Shown piece by piece: positions 1-20,499 of a DNA stretch of 64,000 nucleotides (position 1 is the first letter of the stretch; the number at the start of each line of letters is the position of its first letter). The notes beneath the pieces are model-generated. The model had not been told where the DNA came from, did no database searches, and saw nothing but the letters and a program-made list of their open reading frames with translations. The stretch is from NCBI GenBank assembly GCA_029261355.1, contig JAJDBM010000061.1, forward strand, positions 1-64,000, read 5' to 3'. The position numbers and the translations under genes are program-made. This DNA is from Nitrospirales bacterium (GTDB lineage: Bacteria > Nitrospirota > Nitrospiria > Nitrospirales > UBA8639).

Positions 1-2169
1 TTCTCCAATCAGCCCTTTGTCGTTTGTGTCTTTGATAATCTCAAAGTCTTGAAACGTCACATCGCCGACTTTGACATCGCCATTCGACTGTCGTGCTTCA
101 ACGGTGCCAGAGAAGTTGGAAAAGTCCAAGGTATCGTCGCCGTCTTTCCCGTCTACCTCGAGCGTGCCAGTCGACAAGGCATAATTCGCGGCATCGAAGA
201 CTTCGTCGCCGCCGTTGGCATTGACGGTATCGTCATGTTCTGTTCCTTTAATCTTCTCGACCGCAAACAAATGGTCAGTGTCGCCATAACCGTCATCTGA
301 TACGACGATGGACTTATTGCCTTCTAGCTCCACACTTGCACTTAAATTAAAGGTGATCGTGATGCCATTTGGCGTCGTGCTTCCCCCGTCCCCTTTGGAG
401 TAGTCCGCTGTATCCTCACCATACTCTGCCCCAGTAACTACACGATCCCCACCATGCAGCCAATCGTCCCCACTGCCTCCGTAGAGCGTGTCGTCACCTT
501 CTCCACCCACCAAGATGTCCTTCCCCGCATTCCCATACAGCTGATCACTGTCTCCTTTGCCCAATACCATGTTGTTGTCGCGATTGCCCTTCATCTCATC
601 GATGGTTCCCAATCCAACAAATAAACTCGTCGTGTTGGGTTCAGATGTTTCGTCACCGACCTCTGGCTCTTCCATCTGGACGATCAGCGCCTCAGTCCCT
701 AAGGCAAAATCCATTCGGTTGATAACATTGGCATTAGCGATCGTGTTGTCGCCATACAATTGCTGCATCCCTTCAAGCAGTGCCGATGAGGACGGATCCT
801 TCGTAAAGAAATCGCCCATAAAGAAGTCACTGAGTATCGCTTGCATTCCTTTGATCTCGACGGCTTTATTAGAATCTAGCCCACCTAGGTTCCAGAGCCC
901 CTTTGACAAATCCGCTTTGAGAACCCGATCTCCACCGTACACACTAAGGAACCCTTTTTCTGGTTCTTTGTCTGTAGGTTGAGTGTAGTCCACTTTATTC
1001 AGGGCCATCTGTCCAGCAAACTGGACGATAGCCTCAGCTAAACGAGAATCAGCATTGGCATGTGCGGTAGGACTCCGGCCTTCTGTTATCTGTTTCCCTA
1101 ATTCATTGGCATCATCAAACAAAGCCTTAATCCCGGCATTGCCAAAGACGAGTCCATTTCCTTGTCCGTCCTTTTCTAGTGCAGAATAGGCAATGGCGTC
1201 TCGCATTTTTGTATGTTGATCGCTAATGCCAGTTAGTTGGAGACTTCCAGCAGTTTCAGCTATCTCTGCATCAAATAGCGCATCAAACAACGGATTGATA
1301 ATCGATTGAAACTGAAGCGCCTCTGTATTCTGGGAAAATTCTTCTTTGACATATTCCAATATGACAGCAAAGGAAACACTGTGGGCATCCGCTGGCCCAA
1401 CGATGCTACCCATATTGGGAAGTAGATTTCCTAAAATGGCTGTCGAAGGTGTGCTCCCGAAGCGCACGGCGACTGCGACTTCTCCACTGGCATGCGCTCC
1501 TGTATAGGTTCCTGTGGAATGGGCACCAAGAGGCGGAAGGTCCGTTAAGGAAATTCCCATCGCGGTGAGTTGCTCTTCAGCATATTCCACGGTGTTGCGG
1601 AGGTCATTCGTCGGATGAGTCGAACCCGGTGGAAGTGTCGTATGCGTACTCGCCTCTGGAGTCCCCTTGAGAATACGATACTGATCAATCAGAGCTTGAA
1701 AATCCTGTAACGCGGGGAAGAATCCGATGGAGTCAAAACCAAGAGTTTCCTTGTCGTAGACACCCCCAACAAACCCAGCCAAAGCCCCGCCCAGGGAATG
1801 CCCTGTTAATTTAATGGGGGTTGCGCCGGAAGTCGCTTCAACTGCTTTGAAAAAGCTGGATGCCAAATGTACTTGGGCTTCGTCATAATCATCATTAATG
1901 GCAATGGGCAGATCGACAGACGGCAATTCATATAAAAAATTATCCGTGCCCCGATAGGAAATAATGGTTTCACCGTTCCACTCATAAGTCGACGCGTAGA
2001 AGTCAGCGGCTTGCCATTCGCCATACTCTGCAGAAGTTATGAGAGTCTCACGCTCAACAATACTGGCCGTACCAATTGAGTCACCATCGAGTAGAATTCC
2101 CGCATTATATTCACGGTTGTACGCATCCATAGAAAGGATTGCTAAGAACAAGTCATTTGACATTGGCAT
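1..2169 (-). CDS. RTX calcium-binding lipase (class 3 type), 3' end outside the window
   Basis: Translating the minus strand gives one open frame of 723 codons that runs off the left edge, so the C-terminus is missing. GHSLGG at residues 123-128 is the nucleophile elbow of alpha/beta-hydrolase class 3 lipases, with Ser125 the likely nucleophile. A later ADAHS segment may supply the catalytic His. From about residue 535 there are several glycine/aspartate nonapeptides (for example GGEGDDTLYGGSGDD), the calcium-binding RTX repeats typical of type I-secreted proteins. There is no N-terminal signal peptide, as expected for type I export; no ABC exporter is visible here. The start at 2169 has a GGAG site about 8 bases upstream; a second ATG lies two codons later. 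The gene upstream on the same strand ends 55 bases away. The family call is firm; the substrate is unknown. Confidence 0.88.
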   Translation of the reverse strand, partial: MPMSNDLFLAILSMDAYNREYNAGILLDGDSIGTASIVERETLITSAEYGEWQAADFYASTYEWNGETIISYRGTDNFLYELPSVDLPIAINDDYDEAQVHLASSFFKAVEATSGATPIKLTGHSLGGALAGFVGGVYDKETLGFDSIGFFPALQDFQALIDQYRILKGTPEASTHTTLPPGSTHPTNDLRNTVEYAEEQLTAMGISLTDLPPLGAHSTGTYTGAHASGEVAVAVRFGSTPSTAILGNLLPNMGSIVGPADAHSVSFAVILEYVKEEFSQNTEALQFQSIINPLFDALFDAEIAETAGSLQLTGISDQHTKMRDAIAYSALEKDGQGNGLVFGNAGIKALFDDANELGKQITEGRSPTAHANADSRLAEAIVQFAGQMALNKVDYTQPTDKEPEKGFLSVYGGDRVLKADLSKGLWNLGGLDSNKAVEIKGMQAILSDFFMGDFFTKDPSSSALLEGMQQLYGDNTIANANVINRMDFALGTEALIVQMEEPEVGDETSEPNTTSLFVGLGTIDEMKGNRDNNMVLGKGDSDQLYGNAGKDILVGGEGDDTLYGGSGDDWLHGGDRVVTGAEYGEDTADYSKGDGGSTTPNGITITFNLSASVELEGNKSIVVSDDGYGDTDHLFAVEKIKGTEHDDTVNANGGDEVFDAANYALSTGTLEVDGKDGDDTLDFSNFSGTVEARQSNGDVKVGDVTFQDFEIIKDTNDKGLIGE

Positions 2170-2224
2170 TAGGTAACTCCCATGTGAAATCGTTATTCAT
2201 TAACTCCAGCTCCAGGGGAAAATT

Positions 2225-2926
2225 TCATTTACTCTTATTTTCCTTCCGACTCCGCCAATCCATAAAGTCACCTAGCCTAATACGCTGGTCTGGAGTTAGG
2301 TTTTTCTTTAAGAAGGGCATCTCCGATTTAGGAATTAACCGCTCAACCTTGTAATACCACTGCAACACACTCTCCACTCGCCCTTTGGTAACAGGTTTAT
2401 TAGTAATTTCTAACGTAATGCGTTTTAGAAATACTCCTGTACCAAACGTAGCAGCCAGATTCTTTGGGTCCACTTTTTTTACTGTCTTAGGATCATTTAT
2501 ATCGGTAAAAGTCACGAGCATGGGATAGTCTTCTTGGTCAAGAGCACGAACCTCTTGTACATCGCCAATGACTCCAGCCCAGCCCTTTTCCGGCTGTGAG
2601 ACCACTCCCCCAACAATGTCATGAAACACTTTTCCAGTTAAATACGCGTTATATGTCAACAGCGCAAACACGTATTGGTTATGAGGTAATTCAACCGCCA
2701 CGGCCTCACCTCGCATGCTTAGATGCCGGGCAACATTATCCAATTGCATGGGTTCCCGAATACCCTTAACTATCATTTCCACCACGCTCGAACCTGTATA
2801 TGCCTGCCCGTCGATCTCCACTTCGACAGTCATCTTTTGGTGCCAGGAATAGGTGGGAAAGAAATACAGCCAAAATCCCAATACACCCACAGCCAACAGA
2901 ATGACAATGATCCCAATCTTCTTCAT
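2225..2926 (-). CDS. Membrane-anchored protein of unknown function, upstream partner of the RTX lipase
   Basis: This encodes 233 residues starting at MKKIGIIVILLAVGVLGFW, a basic N-terminus plus one hydrophobic segment that is either a signal anchor or an uncleaved signal peptide. The rest is soluble and presumably periplasmic. A longer in-frame start at 3064 exists, but the extra 46 residues look like translated non-coding DNA and would bury the membrane segment. Recognisable stretches such as RITLEITNKPVTKGRVESVL suggest a conserved family, but I cannot name it. The gene lies 55 bases upstream of the lipase gene on the same strand, so the two are probably cotranscribed. Possible roles are lipase chaperone, inhibitor/immunity protein or unrelated envelope protein; nothing in the sequence chooses between them. 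Confidence 0.7.
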   Translation of the reverse strand: MKKIGIIVILLAVGVLGFWLYFFPTYSWHQKMTVEVEIDGQAYTGSSVVEMIVKGIREPMQLDNVARHLSMRGEAVAVELPHNQYVFALLTYNAYLTGKVFHDIVGGVVSQPEKGWAGVIGDVQEVRALDQEDYPMLVTFTDINDPKTVKKVDPKNLAATFGTGVFLKRITLEITNKPVTKGRVESVLQWYYKVERLIPKSEMPFLKKNLTPDQRIRLGDFMDWRSRKENKSK

Positions 2927-3035
2927 ACAGCCACTCTTGTACTGACTACATCTTCTCTTACAAAATGCATCTTCACGTGCCTCCCTGCCGTGAATTATTA
3001 TTGAGTTTGAAGCTCTTATAAACCAAAACTGCGCG

Positions 3036-3240
3036 TTACCTTTCCGACTGACTCTCTGCAGCAACTGGTTCTGCTCCCATCTTCTTCAACAGCTCCGGAT
3101 CAACCAGACGTGTGACGAGTGGATGAATCCGTATCTCATCTTGCTTGGCCACCTGACGAAAATTCGTGAGTACCGATGCTCACATCGTCTTGACCATCAT
3201 TCTTCACATTCTCCGGCAGCAGATACCGAATAGCCGATTT
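3036..3240 (-). pseudogene. Possible decayed gene remnant
   Basis: On the minus strand a short open segment ends in TAA at 3036-3038 and reads like a natural protein end (HPLVTRLVDPELLKKMGAEP). It has no plausible start and is cut by an in-frame stop about 45 codons upstream. Slightly further upstream another frame starts MKSAIRYLLPENVKNDGQDD and then loses coherence. Together they look like a small gene broken by frameshifts, but the family is not recognised. It sits between the lipase-partner gene and the LuxR-type regulator, in a stretch (2927-3491) that otherwise holds nothing I can support. Confidence 0.3.
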
Positions 3241-3491
3241 CATGTTGTGTATTGGTACCGTTGTACATCACGTCCGCTCCGATATCTCGAGTAACAACAG
3301 ACCTCTTGGAGGGGGCGGTGGCGCGGTCGCAGAGATTCGTCTCGTTGTCGGTTGGGGGGAATCAGGGAATAATCCGGTGGTACGTGGACCATCACGAACA
3401 CGTGAACACAAGCCATGGCCAACTCAAATCTGAATGATCTATGCCAGGGATGTGCACTCGTCAGTATCTAGAAAACTTCATACTCAAAGAC

Positions 3492-4196
3492 CTATTGCCC
3501 ATTTTTACGAACTTTGCCTTGTTCGATTCCTTCTGTTTTTTGTGCATCCGACCAATCAGGCAGGCGTCGAAGGTGAGGAGAAGCGGTGAGCACCAACTGG
3601 ACGCGAGAGGTCACATGCAGTTTTCGATAGATATTGGTGAGATGATATTTCACCGTTCCTACTTTGATGTGCAACCGACGTGCAATCGCTTGATTCGATC
3701 GCCCCTCGACAACTTCGTTGAGAATGCTTTGCTCTCTGAGTGAGAGCAAGGTCTCTGTGGGAGTTGGGGAAGTGGGTCGAGCTGTTATTTGACTAACCGG
3801 CCGATGACATTTGTCAATTGCTGGATAATCATTCACCAAACCGATGACATATTCAATCCCAGGAATAAATCGGATACAGACAGGGTAAATTTTTGTTCCC
3901 TCTATTAATTCAATCCATAGATGGGAGGGCTTTTGGTCATTCAATCCTTGCTGAATGTTCTCGATGACCAACGTCGCGGCTTCCTCTGACAGGACGTCAT
4001 GGACCCGCTTGCCTTTATTCTCTGCGCCACCAAGAAAGTGGCCATGGATCGGGTTGGGAAACAGACAATCCACATAGGTTCCGTTCACATCCCAAATAAA
4101 CACTTTATTGGGAAATGGCCTTTCGAGAGCCTGCCAACCCGATATGGGGTCAACTAGATTCGTCATGGCCAATGGATTTCTAATATGGCTATTCAT
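3492..4196 (-). CDS. LuxR/FixJ-type transcriptional regulator with PAS-like sensor domain
   Basis: The 234-residue protein ends in a clear LuxR helix-turn-helix at about residues 147-200 (LSLREQSILNEVVEGRSNQA followed by IARRLHIKVGTVKYHLTNIY). This is the DNA-binding domain that recognises operators as a dimer. The N-terminal 125 residues (IWDVNGTYVD, then RVHDVLSEEAATLVIENIQQ) resemble a PAS fold rather than a phospho-receiver, and no conserved Asp pocket is evident. It therefore probably senses a ligand or redox signal rather than a kinase phosphate. The chosen ATG at 4196 has a GGAG site about 7 bases upstream; another Met lies ten codons in. The gene stands alone in gene-poor DNA, with about 1.6 kb of empty sequence upstream. 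Its targets are unknown. Confidence 0.82.
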   Translation of the reverse strand: MNSHIRNPLAMTNLVDPISGWQALERPFPNKVFIWDVNGTYVDCLFPNPIHGHFLGGAENKGKRVHDVLSEEAATLVIENIQQGLNDQKPSHLWIELIEGTKIYPVCIRFIPGIEYVIGLVNDYPAIDKCHRPVSQITARPTSPTPTETLLSLREQSILNEVVEGRSNQAIARRLHIKVGTVKYHLTNIYRKLHVTSRVQLVLTASPHLRRLPDWSDAQKTEGIEQGKVRKNGQ

Positions 4197-5817
4197 TGCG
4201 TCTCCAAGCGATCTGACATTGTAGAATTCTCCTCAGCCTTGAGAGTTTCACGACGACATGGTGACAACGATCAACATAGGTGCGTTTGGGTCTGCAGATG
4301 GCCCCCACATTCAACCAGTACGAGGGATCACGAACAATCAACGGAGGACTGGACCTCGAATCCAGCGGATGCCTCCGCTGTCACTAACACGTCAGTCCAA
4401 TCCAAACCATGTCATACTGACGTCTCAAGAATATTTCATGGGAAAAGCCATTTGATTGGAGAGCCTATATCCCACATTGTCAGTCTGTGCCCGTTGGATC
4501 ATCCCTCGTTTATTATTCCTGGCCAGGACATTGAGGCACTGTGGAAGCAACTTTGATGCTACAAAGCACTGAGATACTGATCCCTATGAAAATACGGGGA
4601 AAAGGTGCAAAAAATGCAAATGGAGAAGAGACTGTCTGAGCCTCAGAAGAGAGAAGAACTGTATACTGATCACACATAGTGACAACAGTGTTGACACTTC
4701 ACGGTAGGAAAAGTGGACAAACCGAAAATCCAGGCACGCAGCCCATCATCTCACTGGGTGCTCATCTCTTACGGTGGGATTATTCCGGCCCCTATCCTCA
4801 CTCCCGATTGACGCCGACGTTGCCGAGCGCGAAGAGATTTCCTGAAGTCTTGCCGCAGATCAGTCTCGACGACAGATTGCGCTTCGAATCGAGAATCCAC
4901 CTTCCACAATGCATCACGAGATGGCCCAAAAGGCACAGAGCACCCTGGCTATTCATGAGCAGCCTTGCACTAAAGACCAAGCCAGAATCGTCGGCATATC
5001 TCATCATTCAAATGGTAGGAATAAGTAGGAGAAATGGAACGGTCAAAAAGAACCCTAAAATCTCAATTATACGCATGCAAGAAATGACGACATGCGGGAG
5101 CAAGGTCCCATTCTATAGGTGTCGTCTCTCCGTGATGTACGCCCCATACGCTACAAAACATACACCAACCAATAATTAGTCTGATCTCAATTCATGGTAC
5201 CGTATGACCCGGCCAATACTCGGTCACACCGAAACATCCTCGAAGTCTTTCGACTACGCTCCTAAACATTCTATGAAACATATGGGTAACGAGACGTATT
5301 TCTGGCACGTTATCTGGTGATAGTAATTTGTGACCAGTTCGCTTCGGGAATTTGCAAAATCTGGTCATTGGTCGGCACCGACCAGCAAAGATGATGTATT
5401 TGGTAGGGGTAGTGCTGACATCGGCGTAGAGTGCCGCAGGCGGTGCGACAACAGAATCGAGTTATTGATCTCCAAGGCCGTGGAAGACAAGCAGACCAGC
5501 TTGTCGATTCATTTTTCTGTTCACGTTAGCCAGTGGTAAGGAGGCAGGCTCAATAATTAGGGTGTATGATTGAGAGCACGCACCGAACCTGCCCCCAAGA
5601 ATGAACGACACTTCTCAGGGGTGTCAATTGTACTGGCTCCTATTGGCAGTGAGCTCTATCGTCCCTTCAAGAAATGAATTTCTTTTGATCGATTGTCTGT
5701 AGCAGGATTCCTGTTCTTCTCATCTAGCCTTTCTTCAGCCACTCCCGCATTGTCTATTGATCCCGATCATGAGCATTCAATTAACCAGAAAATACAAATG
5801 ATCGGATGCCGACTCTT
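4197..5817. other. Long stretch without a supportable gene
   Basis: Both strands were read. The open frames here (the longest about 166 codons, at 4679-5179) have low-complexity or improbable composition, no recognisable motif and no ribosome-binding site. I see no RNA gene or strong terminator. The stretch lies between a regulator and the HU gene, and together with the integrase remnant downstream it looks like eroded accessory DNA. Confidence 0.5.
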
Positions 5818-6111
5818 CTACTTTTTACCTTTAGGTAAAATCGCATCCTTCGCAGCTTTCGCGACTCGAAATTTCAGGACTTTCTTCGCCGATATTTTAA
5901 TTGCTTCACCCGTTTGGGGATTCCGTCCCGTTCGAGCTTTCCGATGTTGCACCACTAACTTACCAATCCCTGGGAACGTGAACCCGTCTTTCGCACCTTT
6001 GTACGCCAGCTCCGTTAATTCTTTGAGAATCTCATCCATCGCTTTTTTGGTGAGATCGTGTTTGTCAGCCAGTTTCGCAATCAGCTGCGATTTCGTTAAC
6101 GCTTTACCCAT
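5818..6111 (-). CDS. HU/IHF-family DNA-binding protein
   Basis: The 97-residue protein carries the whole HU fold: a helical dimerisation half (MGKALTKSQLIAKLADKHDL) and a beta-arm half with the family signature GRNPQTGEAIKISAKKVLKF. This signature contains the conserved proline that intercalates into and bends DNA. The C-terminus is lysine-rich (ILPKGKK). An in-frame upstream Met at 6147 is unlikely, because the ATG at 6111 has a strong AGGGAG site about 7 bases before it. HU proteins are small nucleoid proteins that bend and compact DNA. The gene is monocistronic, with gene-free DNA on both sides, so an own promoter must lie in 6112-6250. Whether it is the main HU or a specialised paralogue from the eroded island cannot be told. 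Confidence 0.93.
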   Translation of the reverse strand: MGKALTKSQLIAKLADKHDLTKKAMDEILKELTELAYKGAKDGFTFPGIGKLVVQHRKARTGRNPQTGEAIKISAKKVLKFRVAKAAKDAILPKGKK

Positions 6112-6517
6112 CCGTGGCTCCCTTTCGTTACAGTGTTGACGCGCCATTCATCTGTCTGCTGGTTGTACCGTGAATTGTCAAAAATTGCAATAAGTTCAAG
6201 ACGACAAGACGTCCATCATCGTGCCCTGAGATGTCCAGACATTCTCTCTTTTTTCGAACCAGCACTCATTTTGCTCTTTCATCATCAAACGCAAACACGA
6301 AACACCCAAACGGATAGAATTTTACTGCATCCCATCGGTCTGGACTCCATCCAGTAATTCACGATTGAGGACACACTACGGGTCGAAATGAACTGCGAAT
6401 CCGGAGGATTGTCGAGAAGGCCCCCATCCCCTCGCCGAGCGGATTGAAACAGACCTTCGCTTTCGTCGACGGTATAAGCCATTCGGATGACATAAACCCA
6501 GACAGACATTCTCCACT
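6112..6517. other. Intergenic stretch upstream of the HU gene and the integrase remnant
   Basis: No gene is supported here. On the minus strand a TTGACA lies at about 6177-6182, upstream of HU, but there is no convincing -10 box at the right spacing. The right-hand 150 bases may include more of the decayed integrase N-terminus, too damaged to call. Confidence 0.4.
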
Positions 6518-7479
6518 GATATCGTCGAGTTAGTCCTGACCGACTATGAACACAATCGTCGTCGCTCGATCAAGTCAGCGAGAGGACTCCAGAAGTTTTA
6601 GCAGAACGTTGCCGAATCACTCCTCGCCGACCCTCTTGCTTCAGATCTCCTCACACAATGGACAACCACATGAATTCGTAATCAGCAGATCTCCACCAGT
6701 CGCATTAATCGATGGATGAGCTTTCTGTTAGAAGAGTATCGAGTGACCCTCAATTCAGAGCCTTCCAACGCTTCACAAATCCCCCATTGGAAACACCTCA
6801 AAGAACCACCCCCACGAACAGGCTTTCGTGAGTGGGTAGAATTCGTTCGGGTACGGGAGACGCTCCCTCTCCCCATGCCAGGCTTGTCGTCACGAGCTGT
6901 TCATAGACGGGCATGCGTACTGGGAGAGTCATGCCCCTTACCTGAGGGCATGTCACGTTTGACTGGTGCAAGAAGACCATTACAATGGAACTATCGGGGA
7001 ATGACACGAAGACAGGTGAACCGCGCATGGTGAGCATGGGCGAAGATTTGTACTACACAATGTCATCCTGGTATAAAGACACTCAAGCACAGTATCCCCG
7101 ATGCGACTGGATCACGCACTACAAGGAGCTTCGCCTGAAGAGCATTTGCGTGGCTTAGCAACTGGCTGATGTCAGCGCTAGACTAGAATGCTGGGGGAAA
7201 TCCCATGAACGGTATGACCTCAAACATCGGGATCACGGAGCTCTACTCCATGACTTTCGCCGAACGGCACTACGCAATCTTGTTCGGGCTAGAGTCCCAG
7301 AACAAATGGCCATGAAAAATATGGGACACACATTTGGGACGGTCTTCAACCGTTATAAAACCATCAATGTCGAGGACCTTATGGAGGCCAGCCGCAAGGT
7401 TGTCCATCTGCATGAACAGCACGTGGCTATTCCAGGGCCTGGACATGTGGTGGACACTTCTCCGAAGAACAATGTATAA
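6518..7479 (+). pseudogene. Decayed phage-type tyrosine integrase
   Basis: Across about 320 codons the plus strand reads like a site-specific tyrosine recombinase, but in broken frames. The N-terminal core-binding part starts with LTDYEHNRRRSIKSARG and continues to a segment HLKEPPPRTGFREWVEFVRV, interrupted by two stop codons. After a frameshift at about 6870-6960 the catalytic part resumes (NDTKTGEPRMVSMGEDL), has an in-frame TAG at 7156-7158, and then keeps the box II features: LLHDFRRTALRNL (H-x-x-R), MGHTFG (second His) and NRYKTIN (nucleophile Tyr). The stop is TAA at 7477-7479. The box I Arg region falls in the most damaged part. The 3' end lies 10 bases from the tRNA-Thr gene, a usual att-site neighbour for such integrases. 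With at least three stops and one frameshift it is certainly inactive. Confidence 0.85.
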
Positions 7480-7489
7480 ACCCCTGTAA

Positions 7490-7565
7490 GCTGGTGTAGC
7501 TCAGTTGGTAGAGCAGCGGTTTTGTAAACCGCAGGTCGCAGGTTCGATCCCTGTCACCAGCTCCA
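7490..7565 (+). tRNA. tRNA-Thr (anticodon TGT)
   Basis: This is a full cloverleaf. The acceptor stem GCTGGTG pairs with CACCAGC; there is a D-arm (TAGCTCAGTTGGTAGAGCA), an anticodon stem GCGGT/ACCGC with loop TTTGTAA (anticodon TGT, threonine), and a T-arm with GGTTCGATCC. The discriminator T is followed by an encoded CCA at 7563-7565. The gene follows an integrase remnant by 10 bases, and its 3' half is repeated at 10287-10334, marking it as an integration target. Confidence 0.97.
7518..7565 (+). repeat. Direct repeat copy 1 (3' half of tRNA-Thr), probable attL
   Basis: These 48 bases run from the anticodon stem through the CCA end and recur at 10287-10334 in the same orientation with one mismatch (A7559 versus G10328). 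A direct repeat that keeps the tRNA intact on one side and leaves only its 3' part on the other is the usual footprint of an element integrated by a tyrosine recombinase. Confidence 0.8.
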
Positions 7566-7663
7566 TTCTTTCTTTTTTCAGTTTCAGAACGGGAAATCCC
7601 AGCTGACTACCGATTCTCTCCAAAACGAGAATTTCCCACCCTCCACCTCAATCAACTTGTTTT

Positions 7664-7702
7664 TAAACAAACAAAAAGCCTCAGATCAGTTGATCAGAGG
7701 CT
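7664..7702 (-). terminator. Rho-independent terminator after the PEP-CTERM cluster
   Basis: The inverted repeat at 7677-7702 (arms of 12 bases with one mismatch, AGCCTC outermost, two-base loop) is followed on the minus strand by a T-rich run (TTTTTGTTTG). It lies 31 bases beyond the frame-restored stop of the last of three minus-strand PEP-CTERM-like genes. Confidence 0.8.
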
Positions 7703-7733
7703 CTTGTATAACTTTAATCTATGTAGAAGGAGA

Positions 7734-8259
7734 CTAGCTTGTCTTGCTAGCCCACTTTCGATAGCCAATCAACCCGAGTAAGCCTGTACCCATGAGCAAC
7801 ATGGCGGAGGGGGGTTGGAACAGAAGCCGGAGCAACTGCCCAATCGCCTTCGTCAAATGAAATTGTTCCAAGACCAGACGCCTGCGCAGCACCCCTACCG
7901 AAAAAAGATAGATTGCGGGGTTGAGCTGTAATGCCACTCGCACGTACAACATCAGGAATTGGTCCTGAGCTGTCAAAGGTAAAAGATGAGGTTGTTACCA
8001 AGTCATTCAAGTCCCACGTTTGAATAGGAGAACCTCCTGCAACGGGTGTTACCGAAAAGTCAAAGGCTGTGATCGTAGAATGGACAATGGGTTGGAAGAT
8101 AGAACCATTAAAAAGTACATCATCCATCGTAAAGGATCCACTAAATTCGTTTACGCCATTTGACCCAAAGTAATTGAATGTCACAGGAGCCGCCCAACCT
8201 GGCGCCGCGATCACCAACACAACCACCACACCAAGTATGATCGCTTTCAATTTACACAT
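7734..8259 (-). pseudogene. PEP-CTERM-like secreted protein, frameshifted at a C6 run
   Basis: The reading frame starts at ATG 8259 (GGAG about 10 bases upstream) with a signal peptide, MCKLKAIILGVVVVLVIAAP, nearly identical to those of the next two genes. The extracellular part is about 130 residues with no known domain. At VPTP the paralogues continue PSAFLLMGTGLLGL, a sorting tail. Here a run of six Cs (G6 on the plus strand, 7809-7814) shifts the frame, so the annotated frame ends in an unrelated tail at 7747. Removing one C restores PSAMLLMGTGLLGLIGYRKW and ends at 7734. Without the tail the protein would be secreted but not sorted or anchored. It could be a real mutation, a reversible slippage switch or a sequencing error. 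Confidence 0.75.
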
Positions 8260-8374
8260 TATCAATTCTCCATGTTGAGTATGAATCCATGTCGAGACGA
8301 CAGTAGCAATTTGGTTACTCAATCACAAGAGAGAAATCCTGACAGCCTCGTAATTGATTAATAAGTACGCACAC

Positions 8375-8412
8375 AAACCAAAAGCCCCTCATCGTATGAC
8401 AAGCGGCTTGGA
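8375..8412 (-). terminator. Hairpin downstream of the second PEP-CTERM-like gene
   Basis: On the minus strand, AAGCC and GGCTT arms enclose a second short pairing (TCAT with ATGA) and are followed by TTGGTTTG. It shares sequence with the hairpin after the third PEP-CTERM gene (9128-9164) and resembles the stronger terminator at 7677-7702, so it was probably duplicated with the genes. Pairing is imperfect. Confidence 0.45.
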
Positions 8413-8437
8413 TATACTGAGCTTAATTGTGTGTATA

Positions 8438-9031
8438 TTAACTATTCTTCGTACTCCACTTACAATAACCAATCAGTCCAAGTAAGCCTGTCCCCATTAA
8501 CAGGAATGCTGATGGAGTTGGGACGGCGTGTGGTGCAGGTGTAATATCAACAGTGAGACGAGAACAATCTCCTACATCGCAGATCATTAATATCTCATTG
8601 TTTGTATATGTAATCTGATTTGGTCCAGTCAGAAGTGCACTGACTGAACCCAGTTGAACAGTGTTTCCTAGAATGTCAAAGTCCGATAGTATGCTCTGAA
8701 TTGGGGTCGTTGGGGAATCAACCCAGGTTAATCCGTCGATGACAATATCGAAGACGGATGGGACATCAGACCATGCCCAGTTATTAATTCCACTAAGATT
8801 CGCGTGAGAAAATACGATACTCGATGCTGAGATATCGATATTGATGTTGTCATCGGTTCCGCCTGGATCATCCATTAGCGTACATTCAACACCTGCACCA
8901 ACCTCAATATTCATACAGTTGCCGTGTGGTGAGGTAATGTCAACGAAACTACCGATCAATGACGCTTGCGCAGGCACCACAATACTTAGAACAAACACCG
9001 CACCCAGTATCAACGCTTTCAATTTACGCAT
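8438..9031 (-). CDS. PEP-CTERM-like secreted/surface protein
   Basis: The protein has 197 residues. Residues 1-23 are a signal peptide ending in a canonical AQA-S cleavage site. The mature part is beta-rich with no recognised enzymatic motif and contains four Cys residues (GNCMN, VECTL, MICDVGDCSR), which could form disulfides. The C-terminus reads VPTPSAFLLMGTGLLGLIGY, then C, K and W: a Pro-containing motif, a hydrophobic helix and a short basic end, the layout of PEP-CTERM/VPxxP-CTERM sorting signals cleaved by exosortases. No exosortase is seen in this window. It is the middle of three paralogues on the minus strand, each with its own hairpin downstream, so each may be transcribed separately. 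The function of the mature domain is unknown; members of this family often join extracellular polysaccharide matrices. Confidence 0.8.
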   Translation of the reverse strand: MRKLKALILGAVFVLSIVVPAQASLIGSFVDITSPHGNCMNIEVGAGVECTLMDDPGGTDDNINIDISASSIVFSHANLSGINNWAWSDVPSVFDIVIDGLTWVDSPTTPIQSILSDFDILGNTVQLGSVSALLTGPNQITYTNNEILMICDVGDCSRLTVDITPAPHAVPTPSAFLLMGTGLLGLIGYCKWSTKNS

Positions 9032-9127
9032 TTGAAACCTCCAAACCTAAACGAACGATGTGAAGGGGAAAACCATAACAATACTGACAACTTTCCACAA
9101 CACACCCGTCCACTATGCACACAAACA

Positions 9128-9164
9128 AAAAGCCTCTCATCGTGTGACAAAGGTCTCTTGGTAA
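9128..9164 (-). terminator. Weak hairpin downstream of the third PEP-CTERM-like gene
   Basis: An imperfect hairpin whose arm AGCCTCTCATCG and loop GTGTGACAA closely match the one at 8375-8412. On the minus strand it ends in a T5 run. It lies between the third gene's stop at 9185 and the start of the second gene. Confidence 0.4.
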
Positions 9165-9184
9165 TGCCTATATCTATGTTTGGA

Positions 9185-9778
9185 TTATGGCTTGTTCTTG
9201 GTGTACTTACGATACCCGATCAAGCCAAATAAGCCTGTACCCATTAACAAAAACGCTGATGGGGTTGGGACGGGTGTCATATCTGATGTTATAAGGTCAA
9301 TTCTCAATACCTCATCGCCAAAGAGTTCAAAGGCACCCCGAGCAGCTGACGTTTCAATTGCATGGTTGGAAAATGTCACATCCTCGGGACCAAAATTTCT
9401 TCCACCACTCACTGTTACCCCCGTGATTACCCCAAATGGATTTCCAACCCAATCGAGAGATGATATCCTCAACGACCTAAGATGTGCGCCAGTAGCGACG
9501 TTACTGCCCCAGTTGGTCCCTACTAGATTTCCTGTATAGACAGGTATGATAGTAATCCCGCTTTCATCGATGTCGACGTTGTATTGTTCTTGGGGACTGG
9601 CCGTTAACGTAAAGTCAATCCCTGGCCCAACAAGAATGTCGCTTCCCGGTGATAGATTTCTAAATTCGACTCCAAAACCCTCATAGTCTATCCTATCCCC
9701 AATCAACGACGCCTGCGCAGGCACCACAATACCTAGAACAACCACCACACCAAGTATCAACGTTTTCAATTTACACAT
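9185..9778 (-). CDS. PEP-CTERM-like secreted/surface protein
   Basis: The 197-residue protein starts with signal peptide MCKLKTLILGVVVVLGIVVP and an AQA-S cleavage site, almost identical to its two downstream neighbours. The mature region (IDYEGFGVEFRNLSPGSDIL and onward) has no Cys and no recognisable domain. The sorting tail is VPTPSAFLLMGTGLFGLIGY with a basic end (RKYTKNKP), so the protein should be processed by an exosortase and released or attached to the envelope. The start at 9778 has an AGGAGG-like site (AGGAGGTTCATC). Conserved coding DNA for the signal peptide and tail, with diverged middles, indicates tandem duplication and domain divergence. It is the first gene of the cluster and lies inside the tRNA direct-repeat interval. 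Confidence 0.8.
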   Translation of the reverse strand: MCKLKTLILGVVVVLGIVVPAQASLIGDRIDYEGFGVEFRNLSPGSDILVGPGIDFTLTASPQEQYNVDIDESGITIIPVYTGNLVGTNWGSNVATGAHLRSLRISSLDWVGNPFGVITGVTVSGGRNFGPEDVTFSNHAIETSAARGAFELFGDEVLRIDLITSDMTPVPTPSAFLLMGTGLFGLIGYRKYTKNKP

Positions 9779-10609
9779 GATGAACCTCCTTAGATAAGGA
9801 CGAGAGAAGTGTATGATCCTAGCAAATCACTGCTTATCCCACAAACACGCATAGCGAAGGCTGATTGGTGGGTGATAGGGAAAGACAACAGAGATGAGTA
9901 GTCAGGGTGTTCTATACGCCAGGAAGGAAGTGAAAGGTCTCACCCGCTCGCGACTAGAATAGTAAACTTTCAAAGTCATCAAAAATTCCCCAGTTTTTCG
10001 ATGACTCCTAACGTGTGTTTGTGAGTCTCGTTTTTTGGGGTGAGGGTGGGTCTATTGGATTTTGTGGAAAGTTGAATGAGGACAGAATTTTTCAAGCGAA
10101 AGTGGGGTGAATAACCTCTCATCCCCTACCCTGCTCAGCCTCAGAGTACGTGTAACCTTTTTCTCTCACACCCGTCACATTCTATGCAATGAGATGCAAT
10201 CCTGAGAAGTGGCTAATCCAGCCATGTATCAAGGTAATCCTTTGTTTTATGGGGGTTGGAAGAGGTCGTCGATATTGGTGCATCTAGGTTTTGTAAACCG
10301 CAGGTCGCAGGTTCGATCCCTGTCACCGGCTCCAGATTATCTCGGAAGTATGTTGTCCTGCTGCGTTTTTTGGAAAACTCCCCCCCACCTACAACAATCA
10401 AATCATAGCTCAGCCTGAGCAGTCATTCAGACTGTCTGAATGCAACCCAAGACCTAAATAACTACGCACTCGTATTACGGCCCTAGCCCGACAAATAAAA
10501 CCGTGCTCTTTTCATATTGGGTATGGTCCATTTGCACATCTCTTCTATAGGTGCGAAGATGAATGGTGGCTGAAGTGACCATAGATATCAGCATGCTGAG
10601 AAACACGTC
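9779..10609. other. Intergenic region holding the distal tRNA repeat
   Basis: Apart from the direct repeat at 10287-10334 no gene is supported. The minus-strand open frame across the repeat (10213-10401) contains EPVTGIEPATCGLQ, which is merely the translation of a tRNA T-arm and is a known false-gene signature. A small perfect hairpin, CATTCAGA-CTG-TCTGAATG, lies at 10424-10442. Confidence 0.5.
10287..10334 (+). repeat. Direct repeat copy 2 (partial tRNA-Thr), probable attR
   Basis: This matches 47 of 48 bases of tRNA-Thr 7518-7565 in the same orientation. The 5' half of the tRNA is missing and the acceptor stem cannot form, so it is not a functional tRNA. Together with copy 1 it delimits about 2.8 kb that contains exactly the three PEP-CTERM-like genes. 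Confidence 0.8.
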
Positions 10610-11275
10610 ATGGGACAACCTGCCCTTCACAAACGTTCACTCCTGCAATTATTCGCTCAGACTCAACGACATCACATCCCCTCAATGCTACCTCTAGGTC
10701 AATCAATCAAGAATCAGCAAGGCTTTACCTATTTAATGGTCATGTTTTTTGTCGTGATGATTGGCATCTCTTTAATGACCATTGGACAACAATGGTCAGT
10801 GACGATGAAGCGCGATCGGGAAGCTGAGCTGTATTTTCGGGGAACACGAATTCAACATGCCATTGAACAATATGCTGCAGACCATACGGTCCAAAAAGGC
10901 ACTCGTCCCAATAAATATCCCTTGACGCTGAAAGACCTTACGAAAAAACCTAAACGCTTTCTCCAAACTATCTACAAGGATCCCATGACAGGCGAAGATT
11001 TTGAGCTGATTAAAACAAAGGGAGAAATACGTGGCGTGAAAAGTACCAGTCAGGATAAGCCATTTGATCAAATCAACTTTAAGGGAGCTGCCACCTATAG
11101 TTCCATTCGATTTGAAGCCACCGGCGCAGCATCTGGGACTGGGGATTGCCGGGCAAGTCTTGATAGTCCATTTGGCGATCCCAGTTGCCAAAAAAATACT
11201 CCTGCAAGTCCTTCAGGCAGCACACCGGAATCGCCAACGACTCCTTCGTCGCCGAATACCCCCTCCAACTCGTAA
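10610..11275 (+). CDS. Type II secretion/pilus pseudopilin-like protein
   Basis: The protein has 221 residues. The prepilin cleavage site is QQG|FTYLMVMFFVVMIG, a Gly followed by Phe and a hydrophobic helix, which a prepilin peptidase would cut. The usual Glu at position +5 is absent, as in some minor (GspK-like) pseudopilins. After the helix comes a globular region with GTRIQHAIEQYAADH and a late segment KDPMTGEDFELI, as in GspG/GspH-type proteins. The C-terminal 35 residues are Ser/Pro/Thr-rich. The start is uncertain: Met26 (10685) would give a conventional 13-residue leader, but the ATG at 10610 has a weak GAGA site. It is the first gene of the secretion operon and is separated from the secretin by 280 bases, so it may have its own transcript. 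Confidence 0.75.
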   Translation: MGQPALHKRSLLQLFAQTQRHHIPSMLPLGQSIKNQQGFTYLMVMFFVVMIGISLMTIGQQWSVTMKRDREAELYFRGTRIQHAIEQYAADHTVQKGTRPNKYPLTLKDLTKKPKRFLQTIYKDPMTGEDFELIKTKGEIRGVKSTSQDKPFDQINFKGAATYSSIRFEATGAASGTGDCRASLDSPFGDPSCQKNTPASPSGSTPESPTTPSSPNTPSNS

Positions 11276-11555
11276 CGTGTCACACCGATGATCCTTCCTC
11301 TTCACACCTACCGACACGACTCTCCCACTTCACGGACTCGTACTTATTCTTCATGAACAAGATTCATGCAGTTCGGTCTCACGTAGGGGAGAAAACTTAA
11401 TGTCAGGAGAAAATTATTCCGATAAAAAGACAAGTTAGAACTGGTTGGAAAAGATTCTAGCCTGACAAGGGTAAGTATGGTACGTTATTTTAGAATACGA
11501 GTAAATTTCGCTTAATCTGCCTCTTTCATTTATTCATAATCAGCGATCGTCACCC

Positions 11556-14045
11556 ATGAAACATTTTACCTCTCGCATTGCTCTGATTTGGCCATATGTC
11601 CTCATAGTCATCATTTCCTTCCTCCTTACATCCTGTTCGCTCCCTCACCACGTCCAACTTGCAGAAGATATGATTGCCCAGGGGAATTGGGATGGTGCCG
11701 TTGCTTCCTATCGTGAGGCCATTCGCGACGATCCATTTAATGATGAACTTCTCGAGAAACTCTCTGATGCCAAAGGTCGGGCTGCCGAGGTTCACTACAC
11801 AAACGGAAGAAAATGGCTCAAGAAACATCAATTGCCAGAAGCTTCTCAAGCCTTCCAAATGGCCTTAGGATTAGCGCCGCAACAACCAGAATATCAGGCA
11901 GCCTTGTCAGATGTCCTGCGGATGAAAGATGCCCAAACCGCTCTACGTGACGGGAAAAAACTCCAAAGCCTCGGACAACTTGACGCCGCCTTGCTTCAAT
12001 ATGAACGAGCGATCGAACTCGACCCGAGCTTAACTGAAGCATTAGCCGGCATCACGGCCATTGCTCAACAACAGCAAAAACAGAAATCCATTGGTGGTTC
12101 AGCCGAACCGGTAACCTTACGATTTCAGAACACCAGGCTCAAACAAGTCTTTGAAATTTTGGCCAGAACAGCCAAAATTGATATTTTATTCGACAAAGAT
12201 GTACGAGATGACCTCGTTACGATCTTCACGCGTGATACCCCATTTGATGAAGCCCTCTCCCTTATCTTGAATACCAACCAGCTCTTTGCCAAACGAGTCA
12301 GCGAGGATACGTTACTCATTGTTCCTGACACGAAACAAAAACGCGAACAATACCAAGATTTAAAAATTCGTACGTTCTACCTGTCCAATGCCAAAGCCAA
12401 AGACATGGCGAACTTGCTTCGAACCATCCTCGAAACCAAACGTGTGTATGTCAATGAACCACTCAATACCGTTGTTATCCGTGATGAACCAGCGAAATTG
12501 ATGTTGGCCCACAACATTATCCAGGCCAATGACCGTGGAAATGCTGAAGTCCTCTTTGATGTTGAAGTTCTCGAAGTCAACCGAACGAAGACCAAACGCA
12601 TCGGCCTCAACTTTGCCAAGCAAGCTGGGTTAGGCGCATTCGCCCCTGGAACCACAGGGTTCGGGACGGCACTCCAAACCTTTAATTTTCGAGAGCTCGT
12701 GAATATTGGACCGGATTCCTATCTCTTTACGTTCCCCGGCAGCATACTTCTGGATTTCTTCAAACAGGAATCTGATGCCAAAACATTGGCCGCACCAAAA
12801 ATTCGAGTGCTGAATAATGAAAAGGCCTCCATTAATATTGGCGACAAGCAACCAATTCTGCTTTCAACCAGTAATGTCTTACCTGGCCAACCGAGTACTG
12901 GCGGCACCGGCACGACATCTACCGTAACGTCAATTGAATTTAAAGACACTGGAATCAAGTTGACCGTTGAACCCACGATTCATTTGAATAATGAAATTTC
13001 TTTACGATTACAGATTGAAGTCACCCGATTAGGCGACAGAGTCATCCTACAATCCAATCCTGAAATATCGCAGTTTCGATTTGGTACCCGTACCGCCGAT
13101 ACGGCCTTAAGCTTAAAAGATGGTGAGACGGTGGTTTTGGCGGGACTCCTTCAAGAAGAGGACAGAAAGACTCGCGAGTCAGTACCTGGCGTTGATGATA
13201 TCCCCGTATTGGGCGACCTCTTCAGTAATTCGGAGACTAGCAAGGTGACAACAGAAGTCATCCTCGTCATTACAGCTCATATTGTTAACAGTGTCTTACC
13301 TGTCGATTTAGCCAAGCAAACCTTGTGGTCAGGCACTGCCAAGCATTACGACACGAAACCGTTATTTGCTGAACAGCAAGCCGCGTTACCTGTTCTTCTT
13401 GACAATACCAACCTAGAAGCACCCACTCCTGATACGCCAGGCTCAGACAGGCCGGGGCCAGATAACCGGGGACCAAATACACGAGGCCCAGATACTCGCC
13501 CAGGTCTTGCGCCGCAAGGGAATTCTGGGAGTCCTGGACCCATGGGGTCTAAAAGTCCGAACAATCCTCCATCACCCAACTCGTCTCCGACCGGTGGACC
13601 TCCTGGCTCCTTGAGCCCCTCGCAACCATCTTCAGCGGCGACACGATTATCCATCACCCCTCCGGCTATTTCGACTCAAGTGGGCAAAGAAGTGCGCATT
13701 GACCTCACTGGACATGATGTGTCCTCTGTCGAAAGAACTAATATGACGGTCACCTATAACCCAGAAATCCTTGAGTTTGGCCAAGTGTTAGAAGGGGAAC
13801 TCTGGACAGAACAGCACGTCCAGCCTCGATTAACGTTCTCAGCCGTCCCCAATAGCGGAAAAGTTGTGATTCAAATCGGCAAACCCGGGGAAACCGTAAC
13901 GGGCACGGGCCCATTAGCGACACTTGTCTTTACAGCGAAGGCAGAAGGAAAGGCTGCCTTACAGATCCAACGTTCATCGTTCGTGGATTCTGATGGAACA
14001 CCAATTCCAGTGACGACACAGCATGGGCGGGTCTGGGTACAATAG
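11556..14045 (+). CDS. gspD: Secretin (GspD/PilQ class) with N-terminal TPRs and C-terminal cohesin-like domain
   Basis: An outer-membrane secretin of 829 residues. It has a lipoprotein signal with LLTSC (Cys27). Residues 35-165 are TPR repeats (for example GNWDGAVASYREAIRDDPFN). A secretin/TonB short N-terminal domain spans 185-255 and an N1/N2-type domain 270-350 (IRTFYLSNAKAKDMANLL). The secretin core at about 410-590 has LAAPKIRVLNNEKASINIGD and VPGVDDIPVLGDLF, the latter a near-invariant secretin motif. After a Pro/Gly linker at 610-690 comes a beta-sandwich from 695 on (MTVTYNPEILEFGQVLEGEL) that matches cohesin domains. Secretins form the multimeric gate through which substrates or pili leave the cell. 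The TPR part may replace a separate pilotin. The cohesin end is unusual and may bind a partner. The next gene overlaps its end by 23 bases. Confidence 0.93.
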   Translation: MKHFTSRIALIWPYVLIVIISFLLTSCSLPHHVQLAEDMIAQGNWDGAVASYREAIRDDPFNDELLEKLSDAKGRAAEVHYTNGRKWLKKHQLPEASQAFQMALGLAPQQPEYQAALSDVLRMKDAQTALRDGKKLQSLGQLDAALLQYERAIELDPSLTEALAGITAIAQQQQKQKSIGGSAEPVTLRFQNTRLKQVFEILARTAKIDILFDKDVRDDLVTIFTRDTPFDEALSLILNTNQLFAKRVSEDTLLIVPDTKQKREQYQDLKIRTFYLSNAKAKDMANLLRTILETKRVYVNEPLNTVVIRDEPAKLMLAHNIIQANDRGNAEVLFDVEVLEVNRTKTKRIGLNFAKQAGLGAFAPGTTGFGTALQTFNFRELVNIGPDSYLFTFPGSILLDFFKQESDAKTLAAPKIRVLNNEKASINIGDKQPILLSTSNVLPGQPSTGGTGTTSTVTSIEFKDTGIKLTVEPTIHLNNEISLRLQIEVTRLGDRVILQSNPEISQFRFGTRTADTALSLKDGETVVLAGLLQEEDRKTRESVPGVDDIPVLGDLFSNSETSKVTTEVILVITAHIVNSVLPVDLAKQTLWSGTAKHYDTKPLFAEQQAALPVLLDNTNLEAPTPDTPGSDRPGPDNRGPNTRGPDTRPGLAPQGNSGSPGPMGSKSPNNPPSPNSSPTGGPPGSLSPSQPSSAATRLSITPPAISTQVGKEVRIDLTGHDVSSVERTNMTVTYNPEILEFGQVLEGELWTEQHVQPRLTFSAVPNSGKVVIQIGKPGETVTGTGPLATLVFTAKAEGKAALQIQRSSFVDSDGTPIPVTTQHGRVWVQ

Positions 14046-14559
14046 ATTACAATCGTCTGACGGTGTGACGTTCATTGAACTCTTAGTCACACTCGCGATT
14101 ATTTTTATTCTAGCATCTGTGGCATTACCCATTACCAAGGTCACCACCAAACGCTCTCAGGAATTGGAGCTTCGACAAACATTACGAACCGTTCGCACGG
14201 CCATTGATACCTTTCGAAAAGATTGGGCTAGAGATGGCGACACGCTCCTCGGTCCACTCTGTGTTAAGAATCAATTGACGTGTAAGGAAAGCACTGGAGT
14301 CAGTGGGTATCCAAAGTCATTAGAGCAATTATTGAAAGTTGAGTTATCTGGTGGAGAAGCCCAAGTATCAGAATCGAGCAGTATTCGTCGATATTTACGA
14401 CGAATACCCATTGATCCTCTGACAGGGACCGATGAATGGGGCATCCGCTGTTATCAAGATGAGCCAGATGTTGACCGATGGTGCGGAGAGGATGTCTTTG
14501 ACATTTATTCAATCAGCCCTCGCACGGCACTGGATAAAACAAAATATCGTGACTGGTAA
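14023..14559 (+). CDS. Type II secretion pseudopilin (GspG/GspH-like)
   Basis: The 178-residue protein has a short leader and prepilin site SDG|VTFIELLVTLAIIF, including Glu at +5 that guides assembly into the pseudopilus. Downstream is a globular domain with RRIPIDPLTGTDEWGIRCY and a late DVFDIYSISPRTALDKTKY. This is the layout of the major pseudopilin GspG and its relatives, including an Asp-rich end that can bind calcium in GspG. Four Cys residues (LCVKNQLTCK, RCY, RWCG) could form disulfides. The ATG lies inside the secretin gene in another frame, and the stop overlaps the next start (TAATG), so translation is coupled in both directions. Confidence 0.85.
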   Translation: MGGSGYNRLQSSDGVTFIELLVTLAIIFILASVALPITKVTTKRSQELELRQTLRTVRTAIDTFRKDWARDGDTLLGPLCVKNQLTCKESTGVSGYPKSLEQLLKVELSGGEAQVSESSSIRRYLRRIPIDPLTGTDEWGIRCYQDEPDVDRWCGEDVFDIYSISPRTALDKTKYRDW

Positions 14560-14960
14560 TGAAACATTTTTCACTCAAGCATCACGGTGGCTTTTCTCTC
14601 TTGGAGCTTATGATTGTCGTCTCGATTGCGGCAATCCTCGTGACATTGGCGGTGCCCTCATTTCAGAAGTCTTCCCTCAAAGCCAGAGAGGCGGCCTTAA
14701 AACAGAATCTGTTCACGATGAGATCGATACTCGATCAATTTTATGCTGATCGAGGGAACTATCCATCCTCATTAGAAGAACTGGTGACCGAACAATACAT
14801 TCGCCAAATCCCGATCGACCCCTTCACCAAAGATTCGTCAACATGGGAAGAGGTTCTAGAGGAAACAGACAGTGAAGACGATACACCAGCAGGGGTTTTT
14901 GATATTCATAGCGGTAGTGACCTGACTACATACGACGGTACGCCTTATAAGGAATGGTAA
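14559..14960 (+). CDS. gspG: Type II secretion major pseudopilin-like protein
   Basis: The 133-residue protein has the classic prepilin sequence HGG|FSLLELMIVVSIAAIL with Glu at +5. It is followed by ALKQNLFTMRSILDQFYADR and RQIPIDPFTKDSSTWE, close to the GspG pattern (pilin helix, small beta domain, ending in FDIHSGSDLTTYDGTPYKEW). GspG is the main subunit of the pseudopilus that pushes substrates through the secretin. It starts on the last base of the previous stop codon (translational coupling). Two consecutive GspG-like genes suggest either a major and minor pair or a heteromeric pseudopilus. No prepilin peptidase gene is in the window, so a PilD must be encoded elsewhere. Confidence 0.87.
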   Translation: MKHFSLKHHGGFSLLELMIVVSIAAILVTLAVPSFQKSSLKAREAALKQNLFTMRSILDQFYADRGNYPSSLEELVTEQYIRQIPIDPFTKDSSTWEEVLEETDSEDDTPAGVFDIHSGSDLTTYDGTPYKEW

Positions 14961-14965
14961 AACTT

Positions 14966-15763
14966 ATGCGACACCTTTCATTCATTCATCAACCATTTAT
15001 CACCCTCATCGTTTGTCTTCTTGGGACTATTGGCTGCAGCCACTACCCCGCAACGGCCAATGATGAGGTGGGAGCCATGCCTCTCGTTGAGACGCAAGAT
15101 GTTCTCATACGCGAAGCTCGAGCTGAGAGCAATTCGTTACGTTCAGAATTAGCGGCCATCAAAATTTCCGCGGCCAAACAACTCGCGCAATTGCACTCAG
15201 CCCTGGAACAAGCCAAGAGCTTACAAGCACGTGAAGAGAACATGGGCTCTTCCATTCAACAGGTGCAAGCCAACTTGCTCACGGCTGAAACCGAGCGGGA
15301 CCGACTCCAACAAGAAAACTCTATGTTACAAGCTCAGTCTGCGTCTCTTCCCGGTATCCAACAGCTACAAACTGAGGTTCACATGATTCAAGATGCCGTC
15401 CATCAAATAGCGGTAAGCATGGAAACCCTCATGACCGAAGTCACGCTTATCAAGCAAGACGTCAGTCAATCTCGACGGCAAGCGAGAAGTCGAACGGCTA
15501 GCCTTTCGGCATTTTCCATGACGACTCCTCCACCAGCCATGGCCAACGCCGAACCTTGGGTCGTCAAGCCTGGTGATACCTTATGGCAGATATCGCTTGA
15601 ACGAAATATATCAATTGATTCGTTAATGGCAATGAACCAGCTATCATCAGATCTCATTGTCGAAGGTCAAACATTACACGTTCCTGCCCTGATGGCTCAA
15701 CACACTGAACAGACGGCGGCACCTCATCGCACGGCCAAACCTGAGTCGGCCCCCAGTGAATAG
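14966..15763 (+). CDS. LysM-domain coiled-coil envelope protein
   Basis: From ATG 14966 the protein has 265 residues (an ATG 12 bases earlier lacks room for a ribosome site). The N-terminal hydrophobic segment ends LLGTIGCSHYP, a plausible lipobox, so this is probably a lipoprotein. Residues about 40-170 form a long coiled coil rich in Ala/Glu/Gln (REARAESNSLRSELAAIKIS; AETERDRLQQENSMLQAQSA). The C-terminal part is a LysM domain, WVVKPGDTLWQISLERNISI through IVEGQTLHVPA, which binds peptidoglycan. It lies inside the secretion operon, between the pseudopilins and the platform protein. A peptidoglycan-anchored spacer for the secretin or machine, like FimV/TspA-type proteins in pili, is a reasonable inference. 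Confidence 0.8.
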   Translation: MRHLSFIHQPFITLIVCLLGTIGCSHYPATANDEVGAMPLVETQDVLIREARAESNSLRSELAAIKISAAKQLAQLHSALEQAKSLQAREENMGSSIQQVQANLLTAETERDRLQQENSMLQAQSASLPGIQQLQTEVHMIQDAVHQIAVSMETLMTEVTLIKQDVSQSRRQARSRTASLSAFSMTTPPPAMANAEPWVVKPGDTLWQISLERNISIDSLMAMNQLSSDLIVEGQTLHVPALMAQHTEQTAAPHRTAKPESAPSE

Positions 15764-15828
15764 TCAGGGGCCTAAAGCGATGTTCACATTTTCCTTGTTG
15801 ATTTGACCGGTTCGAATGATAATACCCA

Positions 15829-17037
15829 GTGCCACTATTTCGTTACAGAGCAGCCCGACCTGACGGAAGTATCTTTGAGGATTCGACGGAAGATGATAAT
15901 GAACGTGCCTTGCGTACAAGACTCGAATCGCAAGGGATTCTTATCCTCGAACTGAATGGAAAAGGAAGCCAAACAACTAGCACTCTCTTCCAACGTAAAC
16001 AGAAGCCACTTTCGCTCAGAGAGTTTTTAGTTTTCAATCAAGAGTTTTTGGCCCTCATTAAATCTGGACTCCCCATGTTGCGCAGTTTCGATCTCCTGGC
16101 AGAACGCGCCGACAAGGGAGGGTTTCAGCAAGCACTGATTAATCTTCGTGAAGAAATACGCGGTGGGTCATCTATTTCTGATGCTATGCGCAACTACCCC
16201 ACATACTTCCCAGAATTGTATCAAGCCTCTATCCGCTCAGGCGAACAGTCAGGGAATCTGCCTGAAGTGCTTCAGCGCTACATCCAATATATTAAACTCC
16301 TCATTAGTGTACGAGAAAAAGTCGTCAAGGCGTTGGCCTACCCTTCCTTTTTAGTCGTGTTTGGGTTTTCCGTTGTCGGATTTTTATTGGCCTATGTGAT
16401 GCCAATTTTTGCAGAAGTCTATGCAGAAAGTAATACCGAACTTCCTGCCGCCACCCAATTACTCCTGAATACCATCAACTATGCCAGCATATGGGTGCCT
16501 TGGGCACTCATCGGACTCATTGGAGGAGGAGCACTCTTTCATCTCTGGTGGAAAACACCCAATGGCAAAATGCAAACACATCGATGGATACTTCGCATTC
16601 CGATGTTGGGTGACGTTGTGCTCAAAAATCAAGTGATTCGTTTCACACGCACACTCTCTACCATCCTTGCTGGAGGAATTCCATTATTATCGGCGCTAGA
16701 AGTGACAGCCCAAGGGATGACCAATAAAGTCTTTACGCATGCCTTAGCCGAGACAATCAGTTCAGTTCGCGATGGGAGAAGCCTGTCATTAGCGTTAAGG
16801 CACGAAGCCTTTCTCCCCCGATTAACGATTGAAATGATAGAAGTTGGTGAAACCACCGGCTCGCTGGAAACCATGTTGCTTGAAGTGGCCGAATTTCATG
16901 AAGGAGAGTTAGACCTTCAACTCTCCCGGTTAACCACATGGATTGAGCCACTCCTCTTGCTCGGAATGGGCATCCTGGTTGGAGGCATCGTGATCATCAT
17001 GTATTTACCCATCTTTAATCTAGCCGGTGCCGTGTAG
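15829..17037 (+). CDS. gspF: Inner-membrane platform protein GspF/PilC
   Basis: The 402-residue protein has two GspF domains. The N-terminal PLFRYRAARPDGSIFEDSTE, then LREFLVFNQEFLALIKSGLP, is the typical start. Each repeat carries a cytoplasmic helical bundle followed by membrane segments (LAYPSFLVVFGFSVVGFLLA; ALIGLIGGGALFHLWW; LLLLGMGILVGGIVIIMYLP). The IEMIEVGETTGSLETMLLEV segment is a highly conserved GspF/PilC signature. The protein sits in the inner membrane under the pseudopilus and transmits motion from the ATPase. The start codon is GTG at 15829 with no strong Shine-Dalgarno site; the length fits the family (about 400). It is followed directly by the ATPase gene. Confidence 0.93.
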   Translation: MPLFRYRAARPDGSIFEDSTEDDNERALRTRLESQGILILELNGKGSQTTSTLFQRKQKPLSLREFLVFNQEFLALIKSGLPMLRSFDLLAERADKGGFQQALINLREEIRGGSSISDAMRNYPTYFPELYQASIRSGEQSGNLPEVLQRYIQYIKLLISVREKVVKALAYPSFLVVFGFSVVGFLLAYVMPIFAEVYAESNTELPAATQLLLNTINYASIWVPWALIGLIGGGALFHLWWKTPNGKMQTHRWILRIPMLGDVVLKNQVIRFTRTLSTILAGGIPLLSALEVTAQGMTNKVFTHALAETISSVRDGRSLSLALRHEAFLPRLTIEMIEVGETTGSLETMLLEVAEFHEGELDLQLSRLTTWIEPLLLLGMGILVGGIVIIMYLPIFNLAGAV

Positions 17038-17053
17038 GGCCTTCGAAACCTCT

Positions 17054-20483: not shown

Positions 20484-20499
20484 AGGTCATACACGTATC

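Follow-up and report, generated by a model that had tools for sequence, protein, structure and literature searches.

Islands at tRNA genes are known with displaced tDNA fragments of both types. In the Islander catalogue, 3760 of 3919 islands have a 3' tDNA fragment and 159 have a 5' fragment (PMC4383910). The catalogue also includes 2083 anticodon-centred islands, as well as tandem arrays at one tRNA gene (PMC4383910). The anticodon stem-loop forms a dyad akin to a core site of the lambda type (PMC8371274). At the 'resolve' step of Islander, several candidates at one tRNA are reduced to one unless a tandem array is recognised (PMC4383910); therefore, pairs of islands occupying both sides of a tRNA gene may be under-reported. 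A literature search for such paired two-sided islands found no description of them in the titles and opening lines of abstracts by which most of the matches were judged, which is not proof that none exists.

The window analysed here is a DNA stretch of 64,000 bp, corresponding to bases 1-64000 of contig C61 in a 4.63-Mb genome of the order Nitrospirales assembled in 74 contigs (the host genome). The locus described below is probably a decayed two-sided integration site, at which the anticodon stem-loop of one tRNA-Thr(TGT) gene served as the target of two mobile elements. Each half of it is a known kind of island, because both 3'- and 5'-fragment islands are listed in Islander. The locus is similar to the tandem arrays (PMC4383910) in the use of one tRNA by several elements. 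The arrays are runs of islands with their own fragment and integrase each, whereas here the tRNA has one island to either side, with integrases that face each other in the intact cases.

The tRNA-Thr Gene and the 3'-Side Island Remnant

A single tRNA gene, the intact tRNA-Thr(TGT) at 7490-7565 on the plus strand, was found in the window by ARAGORN. It forms the inner end common to both islands. Positions 29-76 of this tRNA (7518-7565, plus strand), starting within the anticodon stem, are repeated at 10287-10334 with 47/48 identity and a spacing of 2769 bp. The chance expectation for such a repeat pair in 64 kb is about 7e-18. The displaced fragment, also on the plus strand, has the same orientation as the intact tRNA, as in 3'-type islands, and represents the outer end of the 3'-side island.

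The segment between the tRNA and the displaced 3' half (7566-10286, about 2.7 kb) contains just three PEP-CTERM-like genes, and no integrase or other mobility gene was found in it. This segment is therefore called a remnant and not an intact island, and its mode of insertion was deduced from the junction alone, because no mobility gene remains there. Like the 3'-fragment islands of Islander, the stretch 7566-10334 adjoins an intact tRNA on one end, finishes with a co-oriented displaced 3' fragment on the other, and has an anticodon-centred break. It differs from them in having no integrase and would fail the integrase filter of Islander.

The three genes are located on the minus strand (gene 1, 7747-8259; gene 2, 8438-9031; gene 3, 9185-9778) and have N- and C-termini repeated among them as well as the PEP-CTERM-like motif VPTPSAFLLMGTGLLGLIGY. 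Genes 2 and 3 are 46% identical. Both match the Pfam family PF07589 (E 0.02 for gene 2 and 0.012 for gene 3) short of the gathering cut-off of 20.7 bits, and the genes are therefore named PEP-CTERM-like only. The main frame of gene 1 has no match to PF07589, because a frameshift at the G run near 7810 comes directly before the sorting motif, which is found in another frame (PPSAMLLMGTGLLGLIGYRKW). This frameshift, in the region 7800-7835, is either a true lesion or an assembly error. Two matches to the exosortase family PF09721 over the cut-off were found elsewhere in the host genome, on contigs C52 and C36. The PEP-CTERM cargo is ordinary; the unusual part is the paired two-sided form.

All of this agrees with an earlier note on this DNA, which was made from the window alone and had described the repeat of the tRNA 3' part, the three related surface-protein genes as the only genes between the repeats, a decayed integrase abutting the tRNA on the outside, and a small island that has no integrase of its own.

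The Probable 5'-Side Island

The outside integrase, of the tyrosine type, is located at about 6518-7478 on the plus strand, with its C-terminus toward the tRNA and a gap of about 12 bp between its end and the tRNA start. Its frames are broken. Similarity to intact members of the family was detected by blastx over 6518-7440, and the C-terminus matches Pfam Phage_integrase with E 0.0017, under the cut-off. In the comparison of integrases it falls near both the 5'-side and the 3'-side clades, so its clade placement is ambiguous. The preferred interpretation is that a second island occupies the 5' side of this tRNA and that the integrase marks its inner end. The inner (right-hand) part of this island occupies 1-6517, contig C61 beginning at base 1, and includes a gene for an HU/IHF-type DNA-binding protein (5818-6117, minus strand; PF00216, E 7.9e-24). 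Except for short matches, 1-6517 is not homologous to the left flanks of the tRNA in three genomes of the same genus (G001, G003, and G004).

A search of the host genome with the tRNA revealed a third piece of tRNA-Thr, comprising positions 1-43 with 43/43 identity, on another contig (C62:27911-27953). The only overlap between this 5' half and the 3' half (positions 29-76) is positions 29-43, the 15 bp of the anticodon stem-loop. The left flank of tRNA-Thr in G001 and G004 aligns collinearly, and in the same orientation, with 7.3-20.6 kb of C62; for this reason, C62 is most likely the chromosomal neighbour that precedes C61. This link was drawn from synteny alone, the ends of the 5'-side island lying on two contigs, and no exact end overlap joining C62 to C61 was found. 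The terminus of C62 reads as the start of a predicted IS3-type transposase gene, a normal spot for an assembly break. The possibility that C62 holds an unrelated secondary site was also considered, since TreS is located far from tRNA-Thr in G001; it was ruled out by the same collinearity.

The DNA following the 5' half on C62 is foreign. At 28.2-35.1 kb (L031:10203-17138), it contains genes for a pentapeptide-TIR protein, GajA (E 2e-106), and GajB (E 3e-54), that is, both genes of the Gabija defence system as defined in PADLOC. These predicted Gabija genes are cargo only and would have no part in the integration mechanism. Thus, the displaced 5' fragment lies upstream of the tRNA and, by synteny, in the same orientation, and a decayed integrase is present within the island, as in 5'-type islands. 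The C62 5' half, the foreign DNA and the integrase remnant beside the 5' end of the tRNA are features of the 5'-fragment islands in Islander. The differences are that the island ends lie on two contigs and that the tRNA is shared with a 3'-side island.

The outer and inner 5' halves share the same lineage-derived base (GCTGGTG). With a 5'-side insertion already present in the ancestor of the genus, such sharing is not expected unless a later insertion or gene conversion occurred; it also argues against the outer 5' half being a very old leftover.

The Locus in Related Genomes of the Same Genus

In the stretches of 60-83 kb analysed for G001, G003, and G004, one tRNA-Thr was found per genome and the second repeat was absent. 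No counterparts of the PEP-CTERM-like genes were found at the tRNA-Thr site in these three genomes, and the best matches to gene 3 in the congeners are weak and located at other sites. Therefore, the 2.7-kb segment is specific to the host lineage among the genomes compared. This is the empty site that the earlier note had proposed to look for.

In all three congeners, the tRNA-Thr is followed by a block of host genes (block B) that opens with an M3-type peptidase gene. The gap between the tRNA and block B is about 110-150 bp in G001 and G003 and about 2 kb in G004. In the window, block B is found at 22694-38417, and a pilus/secretion-type gene cluster (block A) at 10687-22478. Thus, the order in the host genome is 3' half, A, B, and the order in G001, G002, and G004 is tRNA-B-V-A. 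The DNA found to the right of block A in these relatives is located on contig C47 in the host genome. The rearrangement of blocks A and B touches the site of the 3' half. A tRNA trace at the junction of the two blocks (22478-22735) was tried as a further attachment site and rejected, as it was no better than in shuffled sequences.

Homologous integrase remnants adjoin tRNA-Thr in G003 and G004. The design of the host genome is repeated in G003: the remnant, on its contig C17, lies directly ahead of the full tRNA-Thr, and a 5' half (positions 1-39) was found on contig C60, where it adjoins a gene found upstream of tRNA-Thr in G004. In G001, G002, and G004, searches around the tRNA and in the region ahead of block A for decayed tRNA halves of either type gave nothing clearly above shuffled sequences.

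One-Sided and Two-Sided Sites in Nitrospirales

A profile built from related integrases was run against 235 Nitrospirales genomes. At the loci read with a nearby tRNA, the C-terminus of the integrase always points toward the tRNA, from either the 5' or the 3' side. Several tRNAs are flanked by an integrase on each side, and all four contiguous cases (4/4) have both displaced halves on the expected sides. The intact two-sided layout thus includes one tRNA, two inward-facing integrases, an outer 5' half and an outer 3' half, with the breaks in the anticodon stem-loop. These cases are tRNA-Thr in G117 (15.3 kb to the upstream 5' half and 6.4 kb to the downstream 3' half), tRNA-Arg(CCT) in G012 (11 and 12 kb, respectively), tRNA-Ser(TGA) in G178 (16 and 94 kb), and tRNA-Arg(TCT) in G058 (27 and 17 kb). 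In three controls with a 5'-side integrase alone (G112, G199, and G201), just a 5' half was found in the stretches read.

A displaced 3' half is present in the ten 3'-side tRNA-Thr elements of other genera, with matches beginning at tRNA position 31-32 in eight of them. The match reaches further upstream with lower identity in G218, and the fragment in G031 is decayed.

The side of insertion is strongly clustered in a tree of 37 integrases, with 4 changes compared with 8.6 in shuffles and none of 500 shuffles as low. One 3'-side member sits within a mainly 5'-side clade. Therefore, the side preference of these integrases is mostly inherited and able to switch.

Proposed Origin of the Two-Sided Site

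An element carrying a tRNA 5' half plus the core would rebuild the gene upon insertion from the 5' side, and an element carrying the core plus a 3' half would rebuild it from the 3' side. At the analysed locus, the 5'-side element would have brought in its own tRNA 5' half and pushed the host 5' half to its far end on C62. The 3'-side element would have brought in its own 3' half, the host 3' half being pushed 2.7 kb downstream to 10287-10334 by integrase action. The two insertions would have been separate events. With both elements present, the central tRNA gene would consist of element-borne DNA in both halves, the host halves being moved outward. In this presumed order of events, the 3'-side element would later have lost its integrase and probably other DNA, so that the three PEP-CTERM-like genes remain.

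An improbable alternative is one composite element, which divided the host tRNA at the anticodon loop in a single integration event and carries a spare complete tRNA-Thr beside its integrase, with the PEP-CTERM-like genes as its right end. It would explain why just one 15-bp core is common to the 5' and 3' halves, as expected of attL and attR from one event, and the single integrase remnant would suffice for it. However, many genomes have separate 5'-only or 3'-only islands, in which integrase and fragment lie on the same side. Moreover, host block B comes immediately after the tRNA in congeners with a 5'-side integrase remnant, so the tRNA was not internal cargo there.

Equally doubtful is that the 3' fragment arose without an integrase acting on the 3' side, in an ordinary duplication or rearrangement that may also have relocated block A. 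The segment indeed has no integrase, and block A lies directly to the right of the fragment, in contrast to the tRNA-B-V-A order in G001 and G004; however, the fragment runs from position 29, in the anticodon stem, to the 3' end of the tRNA, nearly the same break as in other genera, where elements that carry an integrase end in a displaced 3' half of this tRNA. Finally, the earlier note read the locus as a single small 3' island, with the outside integrase possibly left over from a previous or tandem element. This reading is right for the 3' side and very unlikely for the whole locus. If islands were arrayed in tandem at the 3' end, the integrase would be found downstream of the tRNA; it was observed upstream, and the displaced 5' half is located further upstream still, so that the integrase fits a separate 5'-side island. 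The 5' half was out of view of the note, because the window begins at the end of the contig.

For the order as a whole, the balance leans slightly toward two-sided occupation of tRNA genes being a distinct and recurrent arrangement. Related integrases, largely split into 5'-side and 3'-side clades, would take opposite halves of a tRNA at the anticodon loop, leaving a working tRNA gene made entirely of mobile-element DNA with the native halves displaced to the outer ends. If so, two independent mobile elements can between them replace an entire tRNA gene, one half each, and the side of the integrase indicates which half is displaced, a rule of use in island mapping.

Additional Features of the Integrase-Bearing Elements

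The 5'-side elements at Thr, Arg, and Met tRNAs are strikingly uniform in size, at about 15-16 kb, in G117 (L150, L148), G112 (L159-L162), and G199/G201 (L166-L169). The G117 element contains a primase/helicase-like gene and is possibly satellite-like. In the small 3'-side elements of 5-6 kb at tRNA-Thr (L206-L210), three features recur: the integrase, a conserved ORF close to the outer end, and a conserved short gene (MSPKPKNTPHRVLLSL...). The genes in between differ.

At 0.96-3.1 kb of contig C70 in G172, a tRNA-like sequence is probably flanked by a further pair of facing integrases, as known from search coordinates only. In G084, two facing integrases flank a displaced 3' tRNA-Thr fragment (C17, about 655.8 kb; L116) at a distance of 81 kb from the intact tRNA, a layout that would be expected if the fragment itself had been targeted. 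The frames of some integrases extend into the tRNA, antisense in 3'-side elements and sense in the 5'-side remnant of G004 (L080, L084, L082).
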